Part shown: positions 11,077-33,186 of the stretch, one piece after another
Layout: every line of letters begins with the position of its first letter
Position numbering within the stretch: position 1 is the stretch's first letter
NCBI GenBank assembly: GCA_012728375.1
Contig: JAAYFF010000077.1
Location: forward strand, 1-35,413
DNA length: 35,413 bases
Reading direction: 5' to 3'
Origin: Bacillota bacterium
GTDB lineage: Bacteria > Bacillota > Dethiobacteria > DTU022 > UBA8154
Program-made: the position numbers and the translations under genes
The notes under the pieces: generated by a model
Databases searched by the model: none
The model's input: the letters and a program-made list of their open reading frames with translations, nothing else
What the model was told of the DNA's origin: nothing

Positions 11077-11811
11077 ATGGCCGGTCCAGGCATTGATCCG
11101 GAAACTGGTGAGTTCTTGCAGCCTGGTCTTTGTCCTATCAACCCCTATACAGGACAGAGAGAATGCCCTCCCACAACTGAAATAGATTGCCTGGTAGTGG
11201 AGAAGGTTTTTGATCAGTGTTTTAAGGAAGATATTGTTCACAGGAGTTTCCCCATCCCCACAGGGCATGGTGGACCCTGCGCAAATGTTGACCTGACCAG
11301 AGTTGATCGGGTAGAATGTCAAGTTCTTTCCGCGGATTGCGTTGTCGTTGATGTCAGTGCGCCCATTGAGGGTAATACCCGCATTGTAACCGTCAGGCAG
11401 GATGTAGAGCTACGGATTGAACTTTGGGATGACAGCCCGCCCGTACCCGTCCTTCTCTGCACGTTTAACGAAACCATAACCGATTTCTTTAACCAGGTAA
11501 CACTGTTTGTTCCTCCTCCGGGCGTTCTTTTTGGCCCTGCCGGAGGCCCCTTCGTTTTCTGCGAAGTGGTTAACTTTACCTGTTTTGGAATTCCGGAAAC
11601 CGTTCCGCCCGGTGACCCGGTAAGGAATGTTATCATTACCGTTAAAATCTGCAAGGTTATTGAAGTTACTGCGTTCGTCAAGCTGCTGGTTCCTGTTTTC
11701 GGCTTCTGCGTCCCCAGACCCTGTGAAGCTGCGCCGCAGCAGATAGAGATCGAATGTCCGCCTATTAGCAGTCTCTTCCCGCCTCAACCGGATGAGGGAA
11801 ATAACACCTGA
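11077..11811 (+). CDS. Cys-rich, Pro-rich putative spore coat protein
   Basis: A 244-residue protein not matched to a named family with confidence. It has no signal peptide. About 14 Cys are spread along the chain (for example IDCLVVEKVFDQCF, DRVECQVLSADCVVVD, ICKVIEVT, FGFCVPRPCE) and Pro/Gly patches interrupt beta-rich stretches. The alternating hydrophobic pattern after residue 75 loosely recalls DUF3794/SPOCS-type spore proteins, but I cannot confirm this. A strong site (AAAGGAGTG) precedes ATG 11077, a sigma-K-like promoter lies upstream and a terminator downstream, making a one-gene unit divergent from the rml operon. A cross-linked spore-surface structural role is inferred. Confidence 0.75.
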   Translation: MAGPGIDPETGEFLQPGLCPINPYTGQRECPPTTEIDCLVVEKVFDQCFKEDIVHRSFPIPTGHGGPCANVDLTRVDRVECQVLSADCVVVDVSAPIEGNTRIVTVRQDVELRIELWDDSPPVPVLLCTFNETITDFFNQVTLFVPPPGVLFGPAGGPFVFCEVVNFTCFGIPETVPPGDPVRNVIITVKICKVIEVTAFVKLLVPVFGFCVPRPCEAAPQQIEIECPPISSLFPPQPDEGNNT

Positions 11812-12911: not shown

Positions 12912-14429
12912 GTGAAAACAGACTTTTTTCCGGGAATTAACCTGTTTCCCGCTTTCATAGAAGAAGAGGAAAGAAAGACTTGCTACCTGCTGGGAAAAGA
13001 CGGTTCTCTGCTTCAATTTCAAGAAAAAGACGATAGATGGTCTCTTCTTTCACCCTATTCAGGCCGGCAAACTTTTAAAGGATTTGAAGCCTTGGTGGAC
13101 AACAGGGGCAAGCACATCCTGGTTGCTTTTGATGAAAGGGGAACGCTTTTTCTGCTGCAGCCGGAGGAGGTCGACCGCGCTCCCGAGGCATTTTGCAGAA
13201 AAACCGGCACAGAAGTCATTCAACTTTCCGCGTGCCTGGACCTACAAAATATTTTGCACCTGCTGCAACTTTCCGCCATCCGGGGGGAAAAGGCCTGTTC
13301 CCTCGTTTACCACCGCTATGAGCAGAATAAATGGACAGCAGACGTTATCCTTGAATGGAGCCCCGGCAATGTTCAGCCATTTGCCCTCATAGTGCAAGGG
13401 AAAGGCGGCTCCCTGTTCGCCCTTTACAGTACCTGCGAGGACGGCCTCTGCCGCCCGGTGCTGCGGGAACTGAAAAAAAGGCAGATTGGAAAAACAATCA
13501 GCTTTCCGGAAAAATGGGAAAACCCCCTTTTGCCGTCTGTCTGCCTTGCCGGGGATAAGCTGCACATTTCCATGCTCAGCCGCATCCGAGATTCTCTTTT
13601 TTTAAATTATGCCTGCCTTTCCGATGAAAAGTGGGAAAACATCCTAATACAGGAAGTATCGCCCTTTACCCTGACCCCGGCACCCCTTTACCTCCGGGGA
13701 AAAGAGCTTTTGTTAACCTGGGGAAAGCAAAACACGATCTTTTTTCTCTTTTCCGGCGATGGCGGCAAGAGCTGGGAGAGGACGGGGGCTCTTCCGCGGG
13801 GGCAATATCTTCGCTTAATCCGCTATCTAGCCTCTCCGGACAAACAGTATCTAAACGGGAAGTGGAAAGGAGACTATTTCTTTGCCCGGGGGAGTCCGCC
13901 CGTACACCTTGTTAAACCTGAAGAAATGCTCAGCTACGGAGATGAAACAGTGCCCTTTGAACAAGAATTTAAAACTCTAGATCGTCTTTATTCTTCTCTC
14001 GCGGTCCGTGCCGGGCAAATGCACAGCGTCAATCTGGATCTGCAAAACAAACTGGCCAAAAAGGAACAAGAATTTTCCCGGCTCTATGCCCGAAGCATTT
14101 CGCAAACCAGAGAGCTTGAAGAGCATTATAAAAGCAAGATAAGTGAGTTTGAAAAAGCCGCAGCAACTTTTAAAAGCATCATTAAAGAACTGCAAAGCCA
14201 AATAAAAAAAGAAAAAAAACTGCAGGAAGAAAAACAACAAAATCAATCTCTGGAGATTTCCCGTTTAAAGGAAGAAATTAAAAAACTGCAGGATAAAATT
14301 AGCAGCCAGGAGGAGACGATCAGGCAGCTCAAGGAAAAGAACCTTTTTCTTGAACAAAAAAATGAAGAACTTCAAAAAAAGCGGGTGCACTTTTTTCAAA
14401 GAATATTTAAAGGCTTCAGGCCTTTATAA
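12912..14429 (+). CDS. Hypothetical protein: beta-propeller/sialidase-like N-terminus with C-terminal coiled coil
   Basis: A 505-residue protein, not recognised as a named family. Residues 1-330 show repeated beta-strand and Trp patterns (DDRWSLLSP, NKWTADVILEW, EKWENPLLP, EKWENILIQ) and one clear Asp-box/BNR-like motif, SGDGGKSWERTG, near residue 285, suggesting a sialidase-type beta-propeller without evident catalytic residues. Residues about 350-495 form a long Lys/Glu/Gln-rich coiled coil, and the chain ends HFFQRIFKGFRPL. No signal peptide is visible. GTG 12912 has AGGAG eight bases upstream. Its position among spore-surface genes suggests a structural or scaffold role, which is inference. 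Confidence 0.8.
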   Translation: MKTDFFPGINLFPAFIEEEERKTCYLLGKDGSLLQFQEKDDRWSLLSPYSGRQTFKGFEALVDNRGKHILVAFDERGTLFLLQPEEVDRAPEAFCRKTGTEVIQLSACLDLQNILHLLQLSAIRGEKACSLVYHRYEQNKWTADVILEWSPGNVQPFALIVQGKGGSLFALYSTCEDGLCRPVLRELKKRQIGKTISFPEKWENPLLPSVCLAGDKLHISMLSRIRDSLFLNYACLSDEKWENILIQEVSPFTLTPAPLYLRGKELLLTWGKQNTIFFLFSGDGGKSWERTGALPRGQYLRLIRYLASPDKQYLNGKWKGDYFFARGSPPVHLVKPEEMLSYGDETVPFEQEFKTLDRLYSSLAVRAGQMHSVNLDLQNKLAKKEQEFSRLYARSISQTRELEEHYKSKISEFEKAAATFKSIIKELQSQIKKEKKLQEEKQQNQSLEISRLKEEIKKLQDKISSQEETIRQLKEKNLFLEQKNEELQKKRVHFFQRIFKGFRPL

Positions 14430-15871: not shown

Positions 15872-15905
15872 AAAACAGGCCGAAGAATTACAGCCTGTTT
15901 TTATT
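15872..15905. terminator. Bidirectional terminator between convergent units
   Basis: Stem AAAACAGGC / GCCTGTTTT with a 12-base loop. T-rich sequence follows on both strands (TTTTTATT on plus, TTTTATTAATTT on minus). It separates the plus-strand stalk-domain gene from the minus-strand GT2-rmlD operon. Confidence 0.8.
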
Positions 15906-15974: not shown

Positions 15975-16154
15975 TTAGGAATTTTTCGCCCCGGCAAAAC
16001 CTTTAAGGTTACTATTGCGACAGCTGTACTTTTTCAGAAGAATTACATTGCCGTTGCTGGACTTTAAAAGTTCCCGGCAGTCTTCACTGCTAAATCCCCG
16101 ACGGCTCAATCTTCCTGTTAAAAGCTCTTCCGATGATCTTACCACCTGAAACAA
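15975..16154 (-). CDS. 59-residue hypothetical protein, RRGFS family copy 1
   Basis: Not a known family to me. It starts at TTG 16154, eight bases after a strong AAGGAGG, and runs 59 codons to TAA. The product begins MFQVVRSSEELLTGRLSRRG, continues FSSEDCRELLKSSNGNVILL, and ends with KKYSCRNSNLKGFAGAKNS. It aligns without gaps over its full length with the product of 18020-18199 (23 of 59 identical). The core is RRGFSxEeCxxLLxS, then GxVxxLK and SNxK. It is the last gene of the GT2-to-rmlD operon, 53 bases after rmlD. It is probably cytoplasmic or mother-cell, with no signal peptide. One Cys in the core is conserved in both copies. Confidence 0.75.
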   Translation of the reverse strand: MFQVVRSSEELLTGRLSRRGFSSEDCRELLKSSNGNVILLKKYSCRNSNLKGFAGAKNS

Positions 16155-16207
16155 TTTATTCGCCTCCTTCCATCCTTTATTACAGTATGAAAGAAATGAT
16201 ATAATTG

Positions 16208-17050
16208 TTACAATACATCCTTGAAGAAGTCCCTTAATGCTTTTTTATAATGCCTAACAGGTTTAAAACCCCTTATCCTCCAGGACGCATTATCCAGCAC
16301 CGTAAACCGGGGGCGGTTTGCCGGCAGCTTAAGCTGCTCCATTTTTATCGGAATAACCAAGTCTTGACAACAATCCGCAAGCCCGGCAATCTCCAAGGCC
16401 AATTGATAGCGGCTGCAAAAGCCGCTGTTGGTAAGATGATAGGTCCCGTAGCAATCCGTCTCAATCAATAATTTAACCGCCCGGGCCAGATCGTCTGTAA
16501 AAGTTGGGGAGCCAATCTGATCTATGGCGGCTTGAACATATTTCTGCTCCGTTAACTTTTGCCGGACAAAGCTGACGAAGTTGGCACCACTTTTTCCGAA
16601 CAGCCATGATGTTCGCACGATATAGTGCCGAGGCAAGGCTTTTCTAACCAGCACCTCCCCGGCAAGTTTTGATGCTCCATAAACGGAAAGGGGATTTGGC
16701 CGATCATCTTCCCGGTAAGAAACGCTGCTTTGACCGTCAAAAATATAATCCGTACTAAAGTGAACAAGGCGTGCACCCGCTCGCCGGGCACAAACAGCAA
16801 TATTTTCAGCTCCCCGGGCATTAACCGCAAAAGCTCTTTCAGCAAATATTTCGCAATCATCCACCCGTGTGAAAGCAGCCGGGTTTAAAATGACATGGGG
16901 CTTATAATCTCGGACAATGCTCCAGGTTTGCTGAAGGTCGGTTATATCCATTTCCGCCCTGGGCAGGGAAAGCACCTGCCCGTCATTAAAGCTTTCGGCC
17001 AGGGCACAGGCCAGCATGCCTCCGCCCCCGGTAATCAGGATGCGCTTCAT
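16208..17050 (-). CDS. rmlD: dTDP-4-dehydrorhamnose reductase
   Basis: Last step of dTDP-L-rhamnose synthesis, an NAD(P)H-dependent reduction in the cytosol. The 280-residue SDR protein shows the Rossmann motif ITGGGGMLACALAE at the N-terminus, HFSTDYIFDGQ near residue 100, the catalytic YGASK in NPLSVYGASKLAGE, and VRTSWLFGKSGANFV. It lies on the minus strand, about 5.6 kb from rmlB-rmlC-rmlA and in a different operon, between a hypothetical gene and a 59-residue gene. Together the four rml genes form a complete pathway, so the split is one of arrangement and not of content. Confidence 0.95.
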   Translation of the reverse strand: MKRILITGGGGMLACALAESFNDGQVLSLPRAEMDITDLQQTWSIVRDYKPHVILNPAAFTRVDDCEIFAERAFAVNARGAENIAVCARRAGARLVHFSTDYIFDGQSSVSYREDDRPNPLSVYGASKLAGEVLVRKALPRHYIVRTSWLFGKSGANFVSFVRQKLTEQKYVQAAIDQIGSPTFTDDLARAVKLLIETDCYGTYHLTNSGFCSRYQLALEIAGLADCCQDLVIPIKMEQLKLPANRPRFTVLDNASWRIRGFKPVRHYKKALRDFFKDVL

Positions 17051-17107
17051 TCTTCTTTGTGATCATCCTTTAAAATTTAAATTTATCAGAGTACCGAGCT
17101 GTGCGGG

Positions 17108-17926
17108 TTAATTTTTGTTTTTCTCCTTTTGACCCTCCAATTGTTGAAAAATGAGATCATAATACCGGTAACGTTTTGTTCCTTTTTGAGAATAGCAGTC
17201 CTGTGAACGTTTTTTTAAGGGAGAGGCAGCTTTGCTTTCTTGCTCCAGAGCAATCAGATCCTCCTTTTCCCATAAATTATCGGTCTTTTCCTTTTTATAA
17301 CCGGATTTCAATTGATCCTCGCCCTCAAAGACCCGCGTTCCCTTAGCGGTTTCCAGCTCATCTCTTTTTCCCTCCGATTCTTCTGCGGGAGCATCCGTTT
17401 CGGCAGCCTCCCGGCCGGGGCTCTCCTCCGGAAAAGTAGCTATCGTTTGGCCCACAGAGGGAACTTGTATTTTTTTATACTGAAATCCATTGTAAATAAT
17501 TTTTACCTTTACATTTATTTTCCAGGGAATAAAGGGTATTTTAGCTGCAAAGTTCAGCCCCCAAAGCCTGCTGAAGTTAATTTCCACTTCGCTCTCACAA
17601 TCCAGAGGGGTATCGCCGCCGGGGTACTGGCCGGCCGGATTTTCCACAAGATAACAAAACCTCCGGGGAAAAACTCTTAAGCAGCATTTACCCGGGCTTT
17701 TGGGGGAGTGTAAACCCAGCCAGACTTTGTAGCCCCCGCGTATATAAATTATACCGTCAGGGGTTTGAGCATAAATTACCTCCAACTGTTCAACATGTGC
17801 GAAGAGTAACTGTGGATATAAGAATGAATTAAAGGAAAAATGATCGACAAATGAAGGCAAAAAGCGCTCCCGTTCTTCCTTTTTTACTTCTTCCATATCA
17901 TTTTTCACCCTGGAAATGATCTCCAA
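17108..17926 (-). CDS. Hypothetical protein with beta-rich N-half and Lys/Glu-rich C-half
   Basis: Not recognised. It is 272 residues from TTG 17926, or 262 from ATG 17896, which has AGGGTG about nine bases upstream and seems the better start. The N-half (about 25-160) is beta-rich and aromatic (PDGIIYIRGGYKVWLGL, WKINVKVKIIYNGFQYKKI), loosely like spore-associated SPOCS/DUF3794 domains; I cannot confirm this. The C-half (about 165-272) is charged, low-complexity and probably disordered (EESEGKRDELETAKG). It has no signal peptide or membrane segment. It lies between a 59-residue gene and rmlD in the GT2 operon, so a role in spore-surface assembly is possible. Confidence 0.7.
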   Translation of the reverse strand: MEIISRVKNDMEEVKKEERERFLPSFVDHFSFNSFLYPQLLFAHVEQLEVIYAQTPDGIIYIRGGYKVWLGLHSPKSPGKCCLRVFPRRFCYLVENPAGQYPGGDTPLDCESEVEINFSRLWGLNFAAKIPFIPWKINVKVKIIYNGFQYKKIQVPSVGQTIATFPEESPGREAAETDAPAEESEGKRDELETAKGTRVFEGEDQLKSGYKKEKTDNLWEKEDLIALEQESKAASPLKKRSQDCYSQKGTKRYRYYDLIFQQLEGQKEKNKN

Positions 17927-17946
17927 TCTTAAAAATAAACTTAAGA

Positions 17947-18007
17947 CCTGCCCTTAGAACATGGGCAGGCGTAAACCCGGCTCAAATTAACTGACCTCCG
18001 GTCAGTT
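17947..18007 (-). other. Two hairpins inside the GT2-rmlD operon
   Basis: Between the 59-residue gene and the next gene are two perfect stems: AACTGACC/GGTCAGTT with a 3-base loop (17989-18007) and CCTGCCC/GGGCAGG with a 9-base loop (17947-17969). On the minus strand the second is followed by TCTTAAGTTTATTTTT, a partial T-tract. They may attenuate transcription or stabilise mRNA ends. Neither is a textbook terminator. Confidence 0.45.
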
Positions 18008-18019
18008 CTCTTTCCTTTT

Positions 18020-18199
18020 TCAACAATTAACAAAATTGCCCAGATCCTTTATATTGGATTTGAATAAGCTTCGTTGCTTAAGAAAAGTGACATCGCCTTT
18101 TTTGCTCTGTAAAATATTTTTGCACTCCTCCAGGCTAAAGCCGCGACGGTTGAACCTGCTTTTTAAAATTTTTTCCGGTTCTCTAAGGATAGTAAGCAA
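18020..18199 (-). CDS. 59-residue hypothetical protein, RRGFS family copy 2
   Basis: Paralogue of the product of 15975-16154, equal in length and aligned without gaps (39% identity by eye). I place the start at TTG 18199 because AAAGGA lies nine bases upstream and this matches the other copy; the frame stays open to 18283. The sequence opens MLTILREPEKILKSRFNRRG, then FSLEECKNILQSKKGDVTFL, and ends KQRSLFKSNIKDLGNFVNC. The basic N-half, predicted helix around RRGFSxEeC and conserved Cys suggest a small folded or nucleic-acid/protein-binding unit, but no function can be named. It follows the GT2 gene by about 118 bases in the same operon. Confidence 0.75.
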   Translation of the reverse strand: MLTILREPEKILKSRFNRRGFSLEECKNILQSKKGDVTFLKQRSLFKSNIKDLGNFVNC

Positions 18200-18316
18200 T
18201 CCATTTCTTCCTTTCCCATTAGTTTCTATAATATATGAAGAAAAATAAAAAACCGTGTAACTGCTTAATGCAGGGTACAACAATATTATCTCTTGGCATG
18301 AGCAGTAACAAAAACG

Positions 18317-19231: not shown

Positions 19232-20338
19232 ATGCACAAATACTTGACTCAGTGGCTGTTTATCATTCGCCTGGTTGGAAAAGTCCTGCCTGCAGTGGAA
19301 AAGGAACTACAAACCTGGAGACAATTTCTGCGGGCTTGTCCGTCCCCTTTTCTGCAAAAACAAGCCCTGCAAAGCATCCGGAACAAACGGTTCCACTGCC
19401 AGGGCGGAGCCGCCTTTTCCCTTCTTAACCCATCTGCAGCAGAAAAGCTCATACCCATGATCGTAGCTTACCAGACGATTAGCGATTACCTCGATAATCT
19501 CTGCGACAGGGTCCCCCTCTATGAGGGGATTATGTACCTGACGGACCGGGAAAAAGATACCCTGATTGAAAGGGGGCTTCGCCATCTGCATTTATCCATG
19601 TTCAGGGCGCTTCAGCCAAATTACGGGAATAACGAAAACTTTTACTACTTTTACCCTGTTAAGGGTGACGGAGGGTATCTGGATAATTTGGTAAAAGTAA
19701 GCCGGGAGATGCTCAGCGGGCTTCCCGGCTATGTGAAGGTAAAAGAGAAAATTTTTTTTCTGGCCGCCCTTTATTGCGACCTGCAGGCGCTCAAGCACCT
19801 TTCGCCGGGGAACCGTTCCCGTTACCTGATGGAGTGGTTTCAACGGTACCAAAAAGCATATCCCCAGCTCTATTGGAATGAGTTTTCCGCTGCATGCGGT
19901 TCTACCTTGGGAATTTTTGTTCTTTTATCTTGGGCCTCCCGCCGGGAAATAACCACCAATGAGGTGGAAGCACTTTTTAACGGATACTTTCCCTGGATTT
20001 GCGGACTGCACATTCTGCTGGACTACTTTATTGACCAGGAAGAGGACCGGCGTGAAAAAGACTTAAATTTTGTATCTTTCTACCGGGATATGGAACAATG
20101 CCTTGGCCGTATGGAAAAATTCGTTAAAATGGCGCTCATCCAGGCCAAAAAAATGCCGCACCCCATTTTCCACTGCACCATCGTAAAAGGACTTTTGGCT
20201 CTCTATCTTTCTGATCCCAAAATAATCAGCCAGAACCTAGAAAAAAGCGCGTTTCGCCTTTTGGCAGCAACAGGAGAAAGGGATATCTTCGCCATGCTGC
20301 ACGCCTGCCGCCTGCTGCGAAAAAGGAGGCTGATTTAG
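19232..20338 (+). CDS. ytpB: DUF2600 protein, tetraprenyl-beta-curcumene synthase-like terpene synthase
   Basis: A 368-residue DUF2600 protein. The Bacillus member YtpB cyclises heptaprenyl diphosphate (C35) to tetraprenyl-beta-curcumene, and sesquarterpenes of this route have been linked to spore resistance. The Asp-rich motif DYLDNLCDR (residues 85-93) and a later LLDYFIDQEEDRREKD segment (about 262-277), probable metal-diphosphate sites, are intact. The N-terminal region (HKYLTQWLFIIRLVGKVLPAVEKEL) is typical of the family. It ends seven bases from the stop of the convergent polyprenyl synthase gene, its likely substrate supplier. It is divergent from GT2. The ribosome site before ATG 19232 is weak. 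No squalene-hopene cyclase is in the window. Confidence 0.9.
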   Translation: MHKYLTQWLFIIRLVGKVLPAVEKELQTWRQFLRACPSPFLQKQALQSIRNKRFHCQGGAAFSLLNPSAAEKLIPMIVAYQTISDYLDNLCDRVPLYEGIMYLTDREKDTLIERGLRHLHLSMFRALQPNYGNNENFYYFYPVKGDGGYLDNLVKVSREMLSGLPGYVKVKEKIFFLAALYCDLQALKHLSPGNRSRYLMEWFQRYQKAYPQLYWNEFSAACGSTLGIFVLLSWASRREITTNEVEALFNGYFPWICGLHILLDYFIDQEEDRREKDLNFVSFYRDMEQCLGRMEKFVKMALIQAKKMPHPIFHCTIVKGLLALYLSDPKIISQNLEKSAFRLLAATGERDIFAMLHACRLLRKRRLI

Positions 20339-20345
20339 CCAATGT

Positions 20346-21377
20346 TCAGCAAGATCTTTGGGGAATGGAAAGGGCAAGTTCTTTCAGAAGTGTTTTTGCG
20401 GGGCTATCGCGGACAAAAGAAAGATACTCCAGGGCTTTCTCAATGAAGGAAAGGGCAATTTTGCGGCAAGTTTCCAGGGGTACCCGGTTGCAGGAGGGAT
20501 CGCGCAGGAATTCCAGAGAGGCGGAAGAAAAATCTTTTCTGCTGATTATTTCCCTAAGGAGCGGCCCCCAGTCAGGGTCCTGCAGAATGTAAATAAGGGG
20601 AAGTGTAATATTCCCTTCCCTTAGGTCATTGCCCACCGGTTTGCCGGTAATGGCAGGTTTTCCTACAATGTCAAGGATATCATCCGTTATTTGAAAGGCA
20701 AGGCCCAGATTGCGGCCAAAAGCTTCCAGCTTCCCGATAGTCGTATCATCCAAGGCAGCCAGGCGTCCGCCCGCGCCGCAGGAGGCTTCAAGCAAAACGC
20801 CGGTTTTGCGGTAAATATTGGCGAAATAATCCTCTTCGGATATTGTCAGGTCAAAAGCACATCCGGCCTGCTCAATCTCTCCTTCGCACATCGTGGCGAT
20901 AGCCCGGGTAAAGAGCATATTCAGCTCGAAATCACCACAATAGGCAAGGAGTTCAAAGGCACGGGCAAAAAAGAAATCTCCCACTAAAACTGCCGAGCGA
21001 TTGCCAAAAACATCGTTTAACGACAGTCTCCCCCTTCTTTCGGAGGAAGCATCAATCACGTCGTCGTGGATTAAAGAAGCCGTATGAATAAGTTCAACGG
21101 CTGCAGCAGCCCTGACCAGGGTATACTCTTCGGCAAAGGTGCCCAGATTTCCGCAAAGCAACAATAAAACCGGCCGCAACCGCTTTCCTCTGCCGGCTAA
21201 GACATAATCTGCCTGTTCCCTTATTAATCCTTTACCGGGAGCCCTGTAATCCTGAAGAATCCTTTCAACCTTTTCCAGGCTGTCTCCCAGTAATGCTTTT
21301 ATTCTGGCCTGCAAGAGTTCCAGGTCGGTTGTCCCTGTTTCCTGTTTAGTTAAAAATGGATCGTATATCCTGGTCAC
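20346..21377 (-). CDS. hepT: Long-chain polyprenyl diphosphate synthase (heptaprenyl type, component II-like)
   Basis: Trans-isoprenyl diphosphate synthase of 343 residues that elongates allylic diphosphates with IPP. The first Asp-rich motif is LIHDDVIDAS (D105, D106, D109) and the second FQITDDILD (D232, D233, D236); GRGKRLRPVL precedes them as usual. The small residues before the first motif (HTASLIHDD) fit long products such as heptaprenyl. Chain length is inferred, and a partner HepS is not seen here. The GTG start overlaps the upstream YdcC-like stop (GTGA), indicating coupling. Products could serve menaquinone and the adjacent DUF2600 terpene synthase. Confidence 0.9.
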   Translation of the reverse strand: MTRIYDPFLTKQETGTTDLELLQARIKALLGDSLEKVERILQDYRAPGKGLIREQADYVLAGRGKRLRPVLLLLCGNLGTFAEEYTLVRAAAAVELIHTASLIHDDVIDASSERRGRLSLNDVFGNRSAVLVGDFFFARAFELLAYCGDFELNMLFTRAIATMCEGEIEQAGCAFDLTISEEDYFANIYRKTGVLLEASCGAGGRLAALDDTTIGKLEAFGRNLGLAFQITDDILDIVGKPAITGKPVGNDLREGNITLPLIYILQDPDWGPLLREIISRKDFSSASLEFLRDPSCNRVPLETCRKIALSFIEKALEYLSFVRDSPAKTLLKELALSIPQRSC

Positions 21378-22063
21378 TGTTTTACCGTACCGCCTTTATT
21401 GTCAATTTGAAAAAATTCATCGGGAATATGGGCATTGAGAATTGTCTTGCGGAATAGAACCCGCTGCTTAAGTTTATCTTGCTGATCATAAACAAGGATC
21501 TGCACCGGCAGCATCGTCCTTTTCTCCAGCCAGACTTCTTCATAGGCGTGATCCCTCCGGGAATCTTGAGGGACAACCCGCAGCAGGTAATAAGAATGCT
21601 TTTCCTTCTTTTCTATGCCTAAAAATTTCCTTTCCCGGGAATTGGCAAGGCCGTCTAAAAAATTATTTAACAAAAACGGGGTTGGGGCAAGCTCCTGAAC
21701 GCCGGCATCCAGGGGAAAAAAATCTCCCATTTCCGGGCTGGACAGCCACATTTTTTCCCCGTCGGAAATAATAACCTGATCAGGCTTTGAATTTTCTTCC
21801 GGGCAGTAGGGAAAAAGCTCGACCCGGAAAAAATGCGGGTATCTGTACCAAACCTGCGCAAAATGTTCCCGGGTCTCGTCTCCCTGGTTAAAGGCCATTT
21901 CCAGGAGAAAATGATAACTGTTGATTTTCTTTCCTCGTTTCAGCGTGCTCTCGATGATACTTTCCGCATCATCTAAGCTCCGGCGGGGATTAAAATAGAA
22001 AAAACCTGTCAATAAGAGCAAAATCAGCAGCGCGGCAACTATCCTGCCCGGTTTGGATCCCAT
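21374..22063 (-). CDS. YdcC/LolA-like sporulation protein, membrane-anchored
   Basis: A 229-residue protein with one N-terminal hydrophobic anchor (about residues 8-24; IVAALLILLLLTGFFYF) and an extracytoplasmic beta-rich domain. Patterns such as VWYRYPHFFRVELF, IISDGEKMWLSSPEM and YEEVWLEKRTMLPVQILVYDQQ are those of the LolA/LolB-like fold shared by Bacillus YdcC and clostridial GerS-type proteins. No lipobox Cys is evident, so an uncleaved anchor is likely. ATG 22063 has GGAG nine bases upstream, better than the TTG at 22078. It lies between nnr and the polyprenyl synthase gene. In related genomes it is adjacent to alr. Confidence 0.75.
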   Translation of the reverse strand: MGSKPGRIVAALLILLLLTGFFYFNPRRSLDDAESIIESTLKRGKKINSYHFLLEMAFNQGDETREHFAQVWYRYPHFFRVELFPYCPEENSKPDQVIISDGEKMWLSSPEMGDFFPLDAGVQELAPTPFLLNNFLDGLANSRERKFLGIEKKEKHSYYLLRVVPQDSRRDHAYEEVWLEKRTMLPVQILVYDQQDKLKQRVLFRKTILNAHIPDEFFQIDNKGGTVKQ

Positions 22064-22138
22064 CTTTACCATCTCCAAATTGGAAAAACCTATTCATATA
22101 TAAATGTATATTTTTTTTATTTTTTTATAACCGCTTTT

Positions 22139-31019: not shown

Positions 31020-32030
31020 TTAAAACAAATCATTTAAAACATCTGTTTTCGCTAATTCGAATTCTCCGATTCGGATAATTTCTCCAGGGGCAAGAACTTT
31101 ATTTTTCTTAAACAAATTTTTTACCGTACCAAAAAACCGGTGCGGAAAAAGCAAATCTATTTTTAACAGTTCTTTTTCTTCTGAAGAAAGTTCATTATTC
31201 TTTTCATACCACAGCAGAATGTCTTCGATTACCTTTTTATCCCATCGCCCGAGCTTTTCCATGCGTTTGCCGATTATCTTCCGCAAATCTCTTACCGGTA
31301 AATCATAGGTGATTCCATCAAGATCAAGAACATAAACAGTATCTCCTTGAAGAATTGCATTTCCTTCCCCGTAATCCTGATGGCAAAGAGCGGATTGTTC
31401 CGGGGCAATATCCGTCAATTTGCTGTATGAAGACTTCAGCAGGGCTTCCAAAGCCTTATTGCCCATTTCTGCAATAGCGTCGATATACCGGCAGTAACTT
31501 TTATAGACGGCATTTTCTGTTTTGGCCGCGGCTTCGTTTTTCCATTTAAGCATTCTGCTCATCATGGATTCATATTGATGGGGCCACCTGCCGAGCTTTG
31601 AAGATACTTTGGCGCCTTCCGGCGCAGTATATCCTCTGGAAGATACATGAAATTTTGCCAAACCTTCCAAGGCAAGGCGCAGGTCCGCGGGCCTGGCAAA
31701 AGAAAAATCTCTACCTTCAATCCACTCGTACAGAACAAAAATTTGCTCCATATATTCAGTAACAGGGTTCCCTTCCCGGTTTAAATACACTTGCGGCACA
31801 GCTCCGCCCGCTTGGGCAATATAAATTTGAGCGCCTACTGTAAATAATGCTTTTTCTTTGTTCTGTTTTAACCGTTTTAAGCATTTGCTTTCAGGGCCCT
31901 GTGTAATTTTCCACACTGTTTTCAAACCGTTATTCTGGATAACGCTTATCTTATCGGGATCAATATCATACTGTAACAAAACATTTCTTGCCAAATTATT
32001 CAGACTTAAAAGATCATTTTCAGGTTTCAA
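31020..32030 (-). CDS. cotS: CotS-family spore coat protein (kinase-like fold), copy 1
   Basis: A 336-residue member of the CotS family, with an aminoglycoside-phosphotransferase/kinase-like fold. The catalytic-loop-like LCHQDYGEGNAIL (about residue 215) and metal-loop-like YVLDLDGITYDLPVRDLRK (about 230-248) are intact, so phosphotransfer cannot be excluded. TTG 32030 is preceded by AAAGGAGG with an 8-base gap and is preferred over the TTG at 32060 that overlaps the upstream gene. It starts 17 bases after the second cotS-like stop and ends just before the cotSA-like start. In Bacillus CotS is an inner-coat protein placed under CotE control. Confidence 0.9.
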   Translation of the reverse strand: MKPENDLLSLNNLARNVLLQYDIDPDKISVIQNNGLKTVWKITQGPESKCLKRLKQNKEKALFTVGAQIYIAQAGGAVPQVYLNREGNPVTEYMEQIFVLYEWIEGRDFSFARPADLRLALEGLAKFHVSSRGYTAPEGAKVSSKLGRWPHQYESMMSRMLKWKNEAAAKTENAVYKSYCRYIDAIAEMGNKALEALLKSSYSKLTDIAPEQSALCHQDYGEGNAILQGDTVYVLDLDGITYDLPVRDLRKIIGKRMEKLGRWDKKVIEDILLWYEKNNELSSEEKELLKIDLLFPHRFFGTVKNLFKKNKVLAPGEIIRIGEFELAKTDVLNDLF

Positions 32031-32047
32031 GAAAAAAGCCTCCTTTG

Positions 32048-33088
32048 TCAGCTTTGGCAAGGAAGAATTGTCTCGATATTTTTTATGACAGGTTCTATTG
32101 ACTTTTCAAGTTTAATCATTTCATTTAAACGTTGCAGGTACTTTCCTTCCGACCAGCTTTGTTCCCTCTTCTCATAATATTTGCTCATAATTCCGACAAA
32201 TAAGTGCGGATATAATAATGTCGGCTTTAAAACTTTCCAGTGGTCGCTTTTCAAAGGATTTTCCCTTTGGTACCACATTAAAATATCTTTGACCGGCATC
32301 AGATCCCATTGTCCTTTTCTTTTGACAATTTTGTTCAAAAGCTTTCTAATGTCCCTGAGAGGTATATCGATGGTTATAGAATCTGTATCCAAAACATAGA
32401 TTTTTTTAGCCTTGTCTGAGATCAAATTTCCTGCCGTAAAATCCTGGTGGCATAAGCCGCCTTTTTGATTTACCTCTTCAACCCATTGATAATAGGGAGG
32501 CTGATCCGATTCTGCAATGGCCTGCTCCATCCTTTCATAAAAATAAGGGAATTCCTGCAGTATTATCTCTCCAAATTTTGTATGGCTGCTTTGGGAACGT
32601 TCAAGTTCATAATAATTTCTTAATTTCTGTACCTGCTCCCGGTATTTGTTAATCCACCCCCCCAAATGGGTACGGACTTTACAATCCTCCGGTGCTTGAA
32701 AGCCGTGCGAAGCCCTGTGGAACCTGGCAAGTTCTTTTACGATCATTTCAATATTTTCATTGCTGCTGTAATTAAGCTTTTCACCTTTAATAGCATCGCT
32801 TAATACATAACAAGTCTTATCCAATAAAACATACTTATCCCCATTCTTAGATTTGATAATCCTCGGAATTTTAATGCCGTTGCCTGTCAAATACTCCACA
32901 GCAGCAAGGATAAATTCCAATGTTTTGGCAGAATAAGCTTGTTGTTTGAGGATTTTCCAGCCACTTGGGGTTCCAATCCACCATACTCCTTTTTTTACTT
33001 TGTAAGATTCTGTTCTTATATTTAAAACTTTGATATCGTACTCTTTCAAGACTTCCCGGACCTTTTCCGGAACTTCATTTTTCATCAT
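32048..33088 (-). CDS. CotS-family spore coat protein (kinase-like fold), copy 2
   Basis: A 346-residue CotS-family protein, clearly paralogous to the next gene but diverged. It shares the N-terminal VREVLKEYDIKVLNIRTES layout, KELARFHRASHGFQAPEDCKV, the loop LCHQDFTAGNLI and YVLDTDSITIDIPLRDIRKLLNK, then DILMWYQRENPL. ATG 33088 follows GGGGGG by nine bases. An upstream in-frame extension to 33136 looks non-conserved. It is the first gene of the cotS-cotS-cotSA operon, whose promoter should lie within 33089-33200. Divergent from cotE. Confidence 0.9.
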   Translation of the reverse strand: MMKNEVPEKVREVLKEYDIKVLNIRTESYKVKKGVWWIGTPSGWKILKQQAYSAKTLEFILAAVEYLTGNGIKIPRIIKSKNGDKYVLLDKTCYVLSDAIKGEKLNYSSNENIEMIVKELARFHRASHGFQAPEDCKVRTHLGGWINKYREQVQKLRNYYELERSQSSHTKFGEIILQEFPYFYERMEQAIAESDQPPYYQWVEEVNQKGGLCHQDFTAGNLISDKAKKIYVLDTDSITIDIPLRDIRKLLNKIVKRKGQWDLMPVKDILMWYQRENPLKSDHWKVLKPTLLYPHLFVGIMSKYYEKREQSWSEGKYLQRLNEMIKLEKSIEPVIKNIETILPCQS

Positions 33089-33186
33089 GAAACAATTCCC
33101 CCCGCGAAAAAATAAAAAATATCTCCCCTTTTTCAATTTAAAATCAAAGCGCCTTTCAACCTTCTTTAATCCATTATATTCCCCCG

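Follow-up and report, generated by a model that had tools for sequence, protein, structure and literature searches.

One of two small paralogous genes in a 35,413-nucleotide stretch of DNA from a Bacillota bacterium of the Dethiobacteria (contig JAAYFF010000077.1 of assembly GCA_012728375.1; hereafter the window) is almost certainly, as judged from its sequence and those of its relatives, the founder of a selenoprotein family absent from a 2026 inventory of 119 prokaryotic selenoprotein families (PMC13188914). That inventory holds nothing similar, and "spor" does not occur in its text. The gene, copy B, very likely specifies a protein that contains selenocysteine (Sec) and is made in sporulation.

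The two 59-codon frames reported in a first-pass annotation of this DNA are present at 15975-16154 (copy A) and 18020-18199 (copy B), both on the minus strand, which had been left unstated. Both have the TTG starts and strong ribosome sites described: AAGGAGG for copy A, read from 16154 to 15975 and ending in TAA, and GGAAAGG for copy B, read from 18199 to 18020 with TGA as its apparent stop. Their products align without gaps, as had been noted, with 23 of 58 positions identical (BLASTP E 1e-14). The frames were therefore correctly described, but the conserved UGA, the hairpin behind it and the Sec-containing tail, which two copies alone could not show, had been missed. Nor are the copies equivalent, as they had been treated: copy A is a derived paralogue in which the Cys, the Sec and the hairpin were lost together, and its type is found only in the window genome and in one other genome of the genus (G002).

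Table 1. Features of the two small genes and their partner in the window (all on the minus strand)
Feature	Position	Strand	Basis
Copy B, predicted Sec-containing protein of 65 aa, LLTILREPEKILKSRFNRRGFSLEECKNILQSKKGDVTFLKQRSLFKSNIKDLGNFVNC-U-KRKEN; TTG start at 18199	18005..18199	-	Translation with TGA read as U; in relatives, orthologous place ahead of the 17108-17926 gene
Copy B, predicted selenocysteine codon UGA	18020..18022	-	Apparent stop TGA: 19/19 Sec-type members, 44/205 background genes
Copy B, predicted bacterial SECIS hairpin, AACTGACC-GGA-GGTCAGTT; UGA to apical loop 20 nt	17989..18007	-	Fit to SECIS model, fold; CC-GGR-GG architecture as in the SelD SECIS of the same genome
Copy B, predicted true stop (TGA) after Sec extension KRKEN	18002..18004	-	Translation with TGA read as U
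Copy B, predicted sigma-K-type promoter, AC (18255-18256) - 17 nt - CATATATTA (18229-18237)	18229..18256	-	Motif search
Copy B, likely terminator, second hairpin CCTGCCC...GGGCAGG with a T-rich run behind it	17940..17972 (limits approximate)	-	Fold; absent from the terminator-scan list
Copy A, Sec-less paralogue, 59 aa, ending ...AKNS, TAA stop, without SECIS hairpin	15975..16154	-	Frame listing, hairpin scoring
Copy A, predicted sigma-K-type promoter, AC (16207-16208) - 17 nt - CATACTGTA (16181-16189); reaches the end of rmlD	16181..16208	-	Motif search
Copy A, intrinsic terminator AAAACAGGCTG...GGCCTGTTTT, of the sequence type seen after other members	15872..15901	-	Terminator scan
Partner gene of orphan family C0 (272 aa); in most members, two genomes of another class among them, it comes immediately after the selenoprotein gene	17108..17926	-	Neighbourhood comparison

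Distribution of a family of small proteins

The profile search that the first-pass annotation had proposed brought the family to 21 homologous genes in 19 genomes, 17 of them Dethiobacteraceae and two (G447 and G481) from another class of Bacillota. Within the window's class, 17 of 98 genomes were positive, all in one family, and only the window genome and G002 carried two copies. Among the matches with names is a MAG labelled Dethiobacter alkaliphilus; taxonomically it belongs to the window's genus. The GenBank record of G003 (locus L041) is titled Desulfovibrio sp.; its whole-genome placement is in the window's family, and it is apparently a mislabelled MAG. Matches in G025, G058 and G019, together with matches at E 1e-3 in a phylum scan, were taken as chance or as frames of RecX length, and the viral contigs searched held no family member.

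In between-species pairs with measurable dS, dN/dS was 0.09 (G005/G013), 0.13 (G003/G008), about 0.2 (copy B and its G002 counterpart) and 0.35 (G003/G012); between copy A and its G002 orthologue dS was saturated and dN was 0.25. Homologues in 19 genomes and low dN/dS argue that the family is genuine and selected at the protein level, in agreement with what had been proposed from the two copies. The conserved length of exactly 59 residues did not hold up: nearly all members begin with TTG behind a strong ribosome site, but between 52 and 62 codons precede the apparent stop, and codon 59 of copy B is most likely not its end. The family had not been recognised in the first reading, and indeed no Pfam or NCBIfam model matched the small proteins above its cut-off, with or without Sec; a search for PDB relatives likewise returned none that was convincing.

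The in-frame UGA and the hairpin behind it

Outside copy A and its G002 orthologue, the apparent stop is TGA in all 19 members, compared with 44 of 205 background genes (21%; Fisher P 4e-12, or about 1e-6 with one member for each of 9 genera, values in which relatedness is not fully corrected). The codon preceding the UGA encodes Cys in 16 of these 19 Sec-type members, the other three belonging to one genus and having weaker hairpins. GG directly follows the UGA in 13 of the 19, against 2 of the 44 background TGA genes (P 2e-7), and a second in-frame stop lies a median of 3 codons further on, against 15.5 in the same background (P 9e-6). Read through, the proteins would have 1-7 residues after the Sec, the first of them usually Gly or Lys; five species give Cys-Sec-Gly-stop. 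G005 and G013 are identical in Gly codon and hairpin; one has TAG as its second stop and its partner TAA, and the stretch from stop to hairpin differs at about half of its bases. As expected of selenoproteins, the 19 Sec-type homologues carry an in-frame UGA at one position, with coding context beyond it. A homologue with Cys in place of Sec, a usual supporting feature that is not strictly required, was not found among the genomes searched; the A copies have TAA or TAG.

Behind the UGA lies a hairpin of the type CTGAC-CGGGA-GTCAG. The model for bacterial SECIS elements requires a spacing of 16-37 nt and a G within the first two loop positions (PMC13188914), and all 18 scored members fit this geometry, with spacings of 16-25 nt and a G at one of these positions; the G481 hairpin, which is outside the scored set, was judged by inspection to fit as well. 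In a hand alignment, the loop reads N-G-[G/U] in 18 of 18 members, and the five-pair stems are paired at 85 of 90 positions, against 74.7 when the 3' arms are shuffled among species. Two members of one genus, G009 (CTGGC/GCCAG) and G015 (CTAAC/GTTGG), differ by two compensatory changes from G-C to A-U around an unchanged loop. The covariation claim rests on this hand alignment, since pair counting based on MAFFT did not rise above shuffles, apparently owing to variable loop length. Against the energy limit for bacterial SECIS elements, -7.5 kcal/mol or lower, the isolated stem qualifies in 5 of 18 members (-9.3 for copy B); some bona fide SelD elements also miss this value.

The SECIS elements of SelD and FdhA in the member genomes have loops and spacings similar to those of the small-gene hairpins, and the SelD element of the window genome (L101), CTGGGTCC-GGG-GGACCTGG, shares the CC-GGR-GG architecture of copy B. 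SelD and FdhA likewise carry an in-frame UGA; unlike the small proteins, they are large enzymes with the Sec inside the protein, and they are not homologous to this family. The Sec machinery that a selenoprotein calls for is present in the host genomes: of the 19 member genomes, 18 have a tRNA-Sec that scores above the Rfam cut-off, and the one that does not (G010) is 84% complete; SelB is above cut-off in all 18 tested; SelD has one in-frame TGA in 17 of 18; and full-length-type FdhA matches have one in 16 of the 18 genomes searched. By their gene content, with tRNA-Sec, SelB and UGA-containing SelD or FdhA, the member genomes decode selenocysteine.

The simplest alternative is an ordinary 59-residue spore protein that ends normally at the UGA, the hairpin belonging to the 3' end or to some other RNA element. 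UGA is after all a legal stop, a terminator follows the hairpin in most members, and the hairpin filter (E <= -3) lets through 12% of background genes. Such a reading does not, however, account for a UGA fixed across 9 genera and two classes, for the Gly codon past it, the nearby second stop and the invariant loop G, or for the presence of the Sec machinery. It is also at odds with the A copies: copy A and its G002 orthologue end in TAA or TAG and show no comparable hairpin on scoring, and this joint loss of UGA and hairpin is the outcome predicted for a Sec codon. We consider an ordinary protein improbable. The conserved UGA, its Gly context, the near second stop, the SECIS-type hairpin and the Sec machinery together indicate that copy B most likely extends past the UGA. 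We read the TGA at 18022-18020 as a very probable selenocysteine codon; the protein would then have 65 residues, with its true stop at 18004-18002 and, most likely, the C-terminus ...Asn-Cys-Sec-Lys-Arg-Lys-Glu-Asn. That Sec is actually inserted at the UGA is highly likely on these grounds. The two members from the other class, G447 and G481, independently show the UGA, the hairpin, the Sec tRNA and the same downstream partner.

Promoters, neighbours and a likely link to sporulation

Upstream sequences were scored for the sigma-K motif AC - 16/17 nt - CATAnnnTA. With at most one mismatch it precedes 17 of 20 members, against 17 of 204 background genes and 5.6% of shuffled upstream sequences; a perfect motif precedes 12 of 20, both window copies among them, against 3 of 204 and 0.2%. 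The family thus carries promoters of the kind expected in a sigma-K regulon, and the motif agrees with the form mapped in C. difficile, AC and CATATAAT (PMC3789822); upstream of G010, G447 and the G002 A copy no good match was found. Expression of the small selenoprotein in the mother cell is, on the strength of this motif, very likely. A terminator of the AAAACAGGCT...AGCCTGTTTT type follows the gene in most members, and with its own promoter and terminator the small gene is probably transcribed alone. The window also carries a GPR protease gene and two CotS-family genes; the latter adjoin each other at 31020-33136, beside a glycosyltransferase.

The first-pass annotation had placed both copies in a spore-glycan operon, with a role in spore-surface polysaccharide synthesis alongside the glycosyltransferase and rmlD. 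The neighbourhood in the window, and a glycosyltransferase next door in about half of the loci, speak for such a role; against it stand the separate promoter and terminator, the absence of a glycosyltransferase beside the gene at the other loci, including that of G481, and an rmlD adjacent in the window genome only. The operon is thus a local arrangement, and a part in polysaccharide synthesis is very unlikely. The proposed spore connection fares better than the operon did, being consistent with the sigma-K-type promoters and with the GPR and CotS-family genes.

The genomic-context counts that had been called for do reveal a tight linkage, though not to the glycosyltransferase or rmlD. No neighbour is more constant than the orphan gene at 17108-17926, which has homologues in 15 of the 17 in-class member genomes and in none of the 81 other genomes. 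The two exceptions are G017, whose locus stops at a contig edge, and G002, whose genome has no match; in G447 and G481 the homologue adjoins the small gene. No Pfam or NCBIfam family was found for its product, which has a conserved N-terminal half, a variable low-complexity middle and a conserved C-terminal YYxxYxLFY-like motif. A second, truncated copy of this family lies at a contig end in G003 (locus L064, 10259-10567).

This arrangement of a small frame, a hairpin and a terminator upstream of the 17108-17926 gene in most loci could also describe a leader peptide with an attenuator that controls that gene. Selection at the amino-acid level argues against it, as do the retention of both copies in G002, whose genome lacks the supposed target, and the position of copy A in the window, with no such gene downstream; we regard a leader peptide as exceedingly unlikely. 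In the mechanism proposed below, the 17108-17926 product would probably act together with the selenoprotein.

Several other genes recur at the locus. A CAP-domain gene and the orphan gene 11077-11811 are found near the small gene, including in G481. The protein of the latter, which begins MAGPxIDPETGEFLQPGLCPINPxTGQRECPPTTE, belongs to no known family and is about 60% identical between the window genome and G481, a member of another class; its recurrence near the spore cluster makes it a candidate spore-surface protein. The gene at 12912-14429 encodes an orphan of 505 aa whose C-terminal part is a long coiled coil, is convergent to the block of selenoprotein and partner genes, and keeps this position in nearly all relatives. 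At 19232-21377 a DUF2600 protein (PF10776, E 9e-117) lies beside a polyprenyl diphosphate synthase, a conserved pair that possibly represents a spore terpenoid (YtpB-like) pathway. Also conserved at the locus is a LolA/MucB-RseB-like protein at 21374-22078 (sub-threshold Pfam matches); one protein of the MucB/RseB kind is reported to influence the shape of B. subtilis spores (PMC7769602).

Possible function and significance

AlphaFold, run with a 20-sequence alignment, predicts, with moderate confidence, helices at residues 8-15 and 23-31 in a block with pLDDT 72-86, followed by a basic tail of low confidence (mean pLDDT 69.8). A structure search with this model gave no significant fold match (best E 6.6). 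Weak Pfam matches to RecX_HTH1 and RecX_HTH3 (E 0.025-0.05, below cut-off) and a pI of about 10 could suggest a nucleic-acid-binding regulator in which the RRGFxxExC helix pair acts like the three-helix units of RecX. Only two helices are predicted, however, with no structural match, and the Cys-Sec tail would be left unexplained, which makes such a regulator quite improbable. Membership of RecX itself was rejected: the RecX HTH models score 14-15 bits against a gathering score of 26, taken as short-motif similarity.

We propose that the mother-cell RNA polymerase containing sigma-K would transcribe copy B from its own promoter late in sporulation. SelB, bound to the SECIS hairpin just 3' of the UGA, would bring Sec-tRNA, so that the ribosome would continue through the UGA and stop a few codons on. 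The product would be a basic protein with a two-helix head (residues 8-31) and a flexible basic tail bearing adjacent Cys and Sec. Most likely this pair would cycle between selenolate/thiol and selenenylsulfide, and the tail would either reduce peroxides or disulfides, or exchange and cross-link the thiols of coat or exosporium proteins as the shell is assembled. Copy A would keep the head and a basic tail that lacks the redox pair, and may retain a binding or structural role.

The closest mechanistic analogue is the C-terminal Gly-Cys-Sec-Gly arm of animal thioredoxin reductase, where an adjacent Cys and Sec followed by Gly also occupy a flexible C-terminus. The likeness is one of mechanism only: the small protein is basic, stands alone at about 60 residues and has no flavoenzyme domain. 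Among prokaryotic families, KCU-star (DUF466, NF033934) is listed with a Cys-Sec (CU) motif, and its name suggests a C-terminal K-C-U end (PMC13188914). Its HMM does not match copy B or its relatives at E up to 10, and in the small family the Sec, after which Gly or Lys usually comes first, has 1-7 residues behind it, and the gene has a sigma-K-type promoter. SaoC, the Cys-Cys-COOH selenoprotein (NF040734), also has a Cys-Sec tail; again its HMM gives no match at E up to 10, and SaoC is grouped with transporter and metal-resistance selenoproteins (PMC13188914). None of the NCBIfam selenoprotein-family HMMs matches the small proteins.

Instead of a redox enzyme, the small protein could be a Cys-Sec binder of metals or metalloids in the spore coat, a role compatible with Sec insertion. 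The terminal Cys-Sec pair and the basic flexible tail would suit such a protein, and metal-ligand roles have been suggested for other selenoproteins, for example SaoB and SaoC (PMC13188914); the conserved neighbourhood, however, is without recognised metal-resistance or transporter genes, and we hold a metal binder to be unlikely, if less so than the alternatives above. Redox enzymes made under sigma-K have a precedent in the coat of an anaerobe: in C. difficile these are two catalases, CotCB and CotD, and a peroxiredoxin, CotE (PMC3789822). A redox role of the small selenoprotein in the spore coat, in which both role and location are conjectural, is plausible while falling somewhat short of probable. 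A little more tentative is the fuller picture of a structural spore-shell selenoprotein whose Cys-Sec tail would cross-link or redox-protect the coat of a strict anaerobe. In this picture the making of endospores would be tied to the supply of selenium, and a duplicated form that lacks Sec would be evolving alongside.

Literature searches that combined selenoprotein or selenocysteine with sporulation, spore coat or endospore returned no such protein, an earlier mention elsewhere being possible, and in the literature searched we found no sporulation-linked prokaryotic selenoprotein family. If our reading is true, UGA recoding would operate within the sporulation programme, and in some anaerobes the quality of the spores would depend directly on selenium. 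Tiny selenoproteins with a Sec only a few codons from the end would also be annotated as ordinary short proteins, or missed. The occurrence of a Sec copy and a Sec-less copy in one genome would then amount to a natural experiment.
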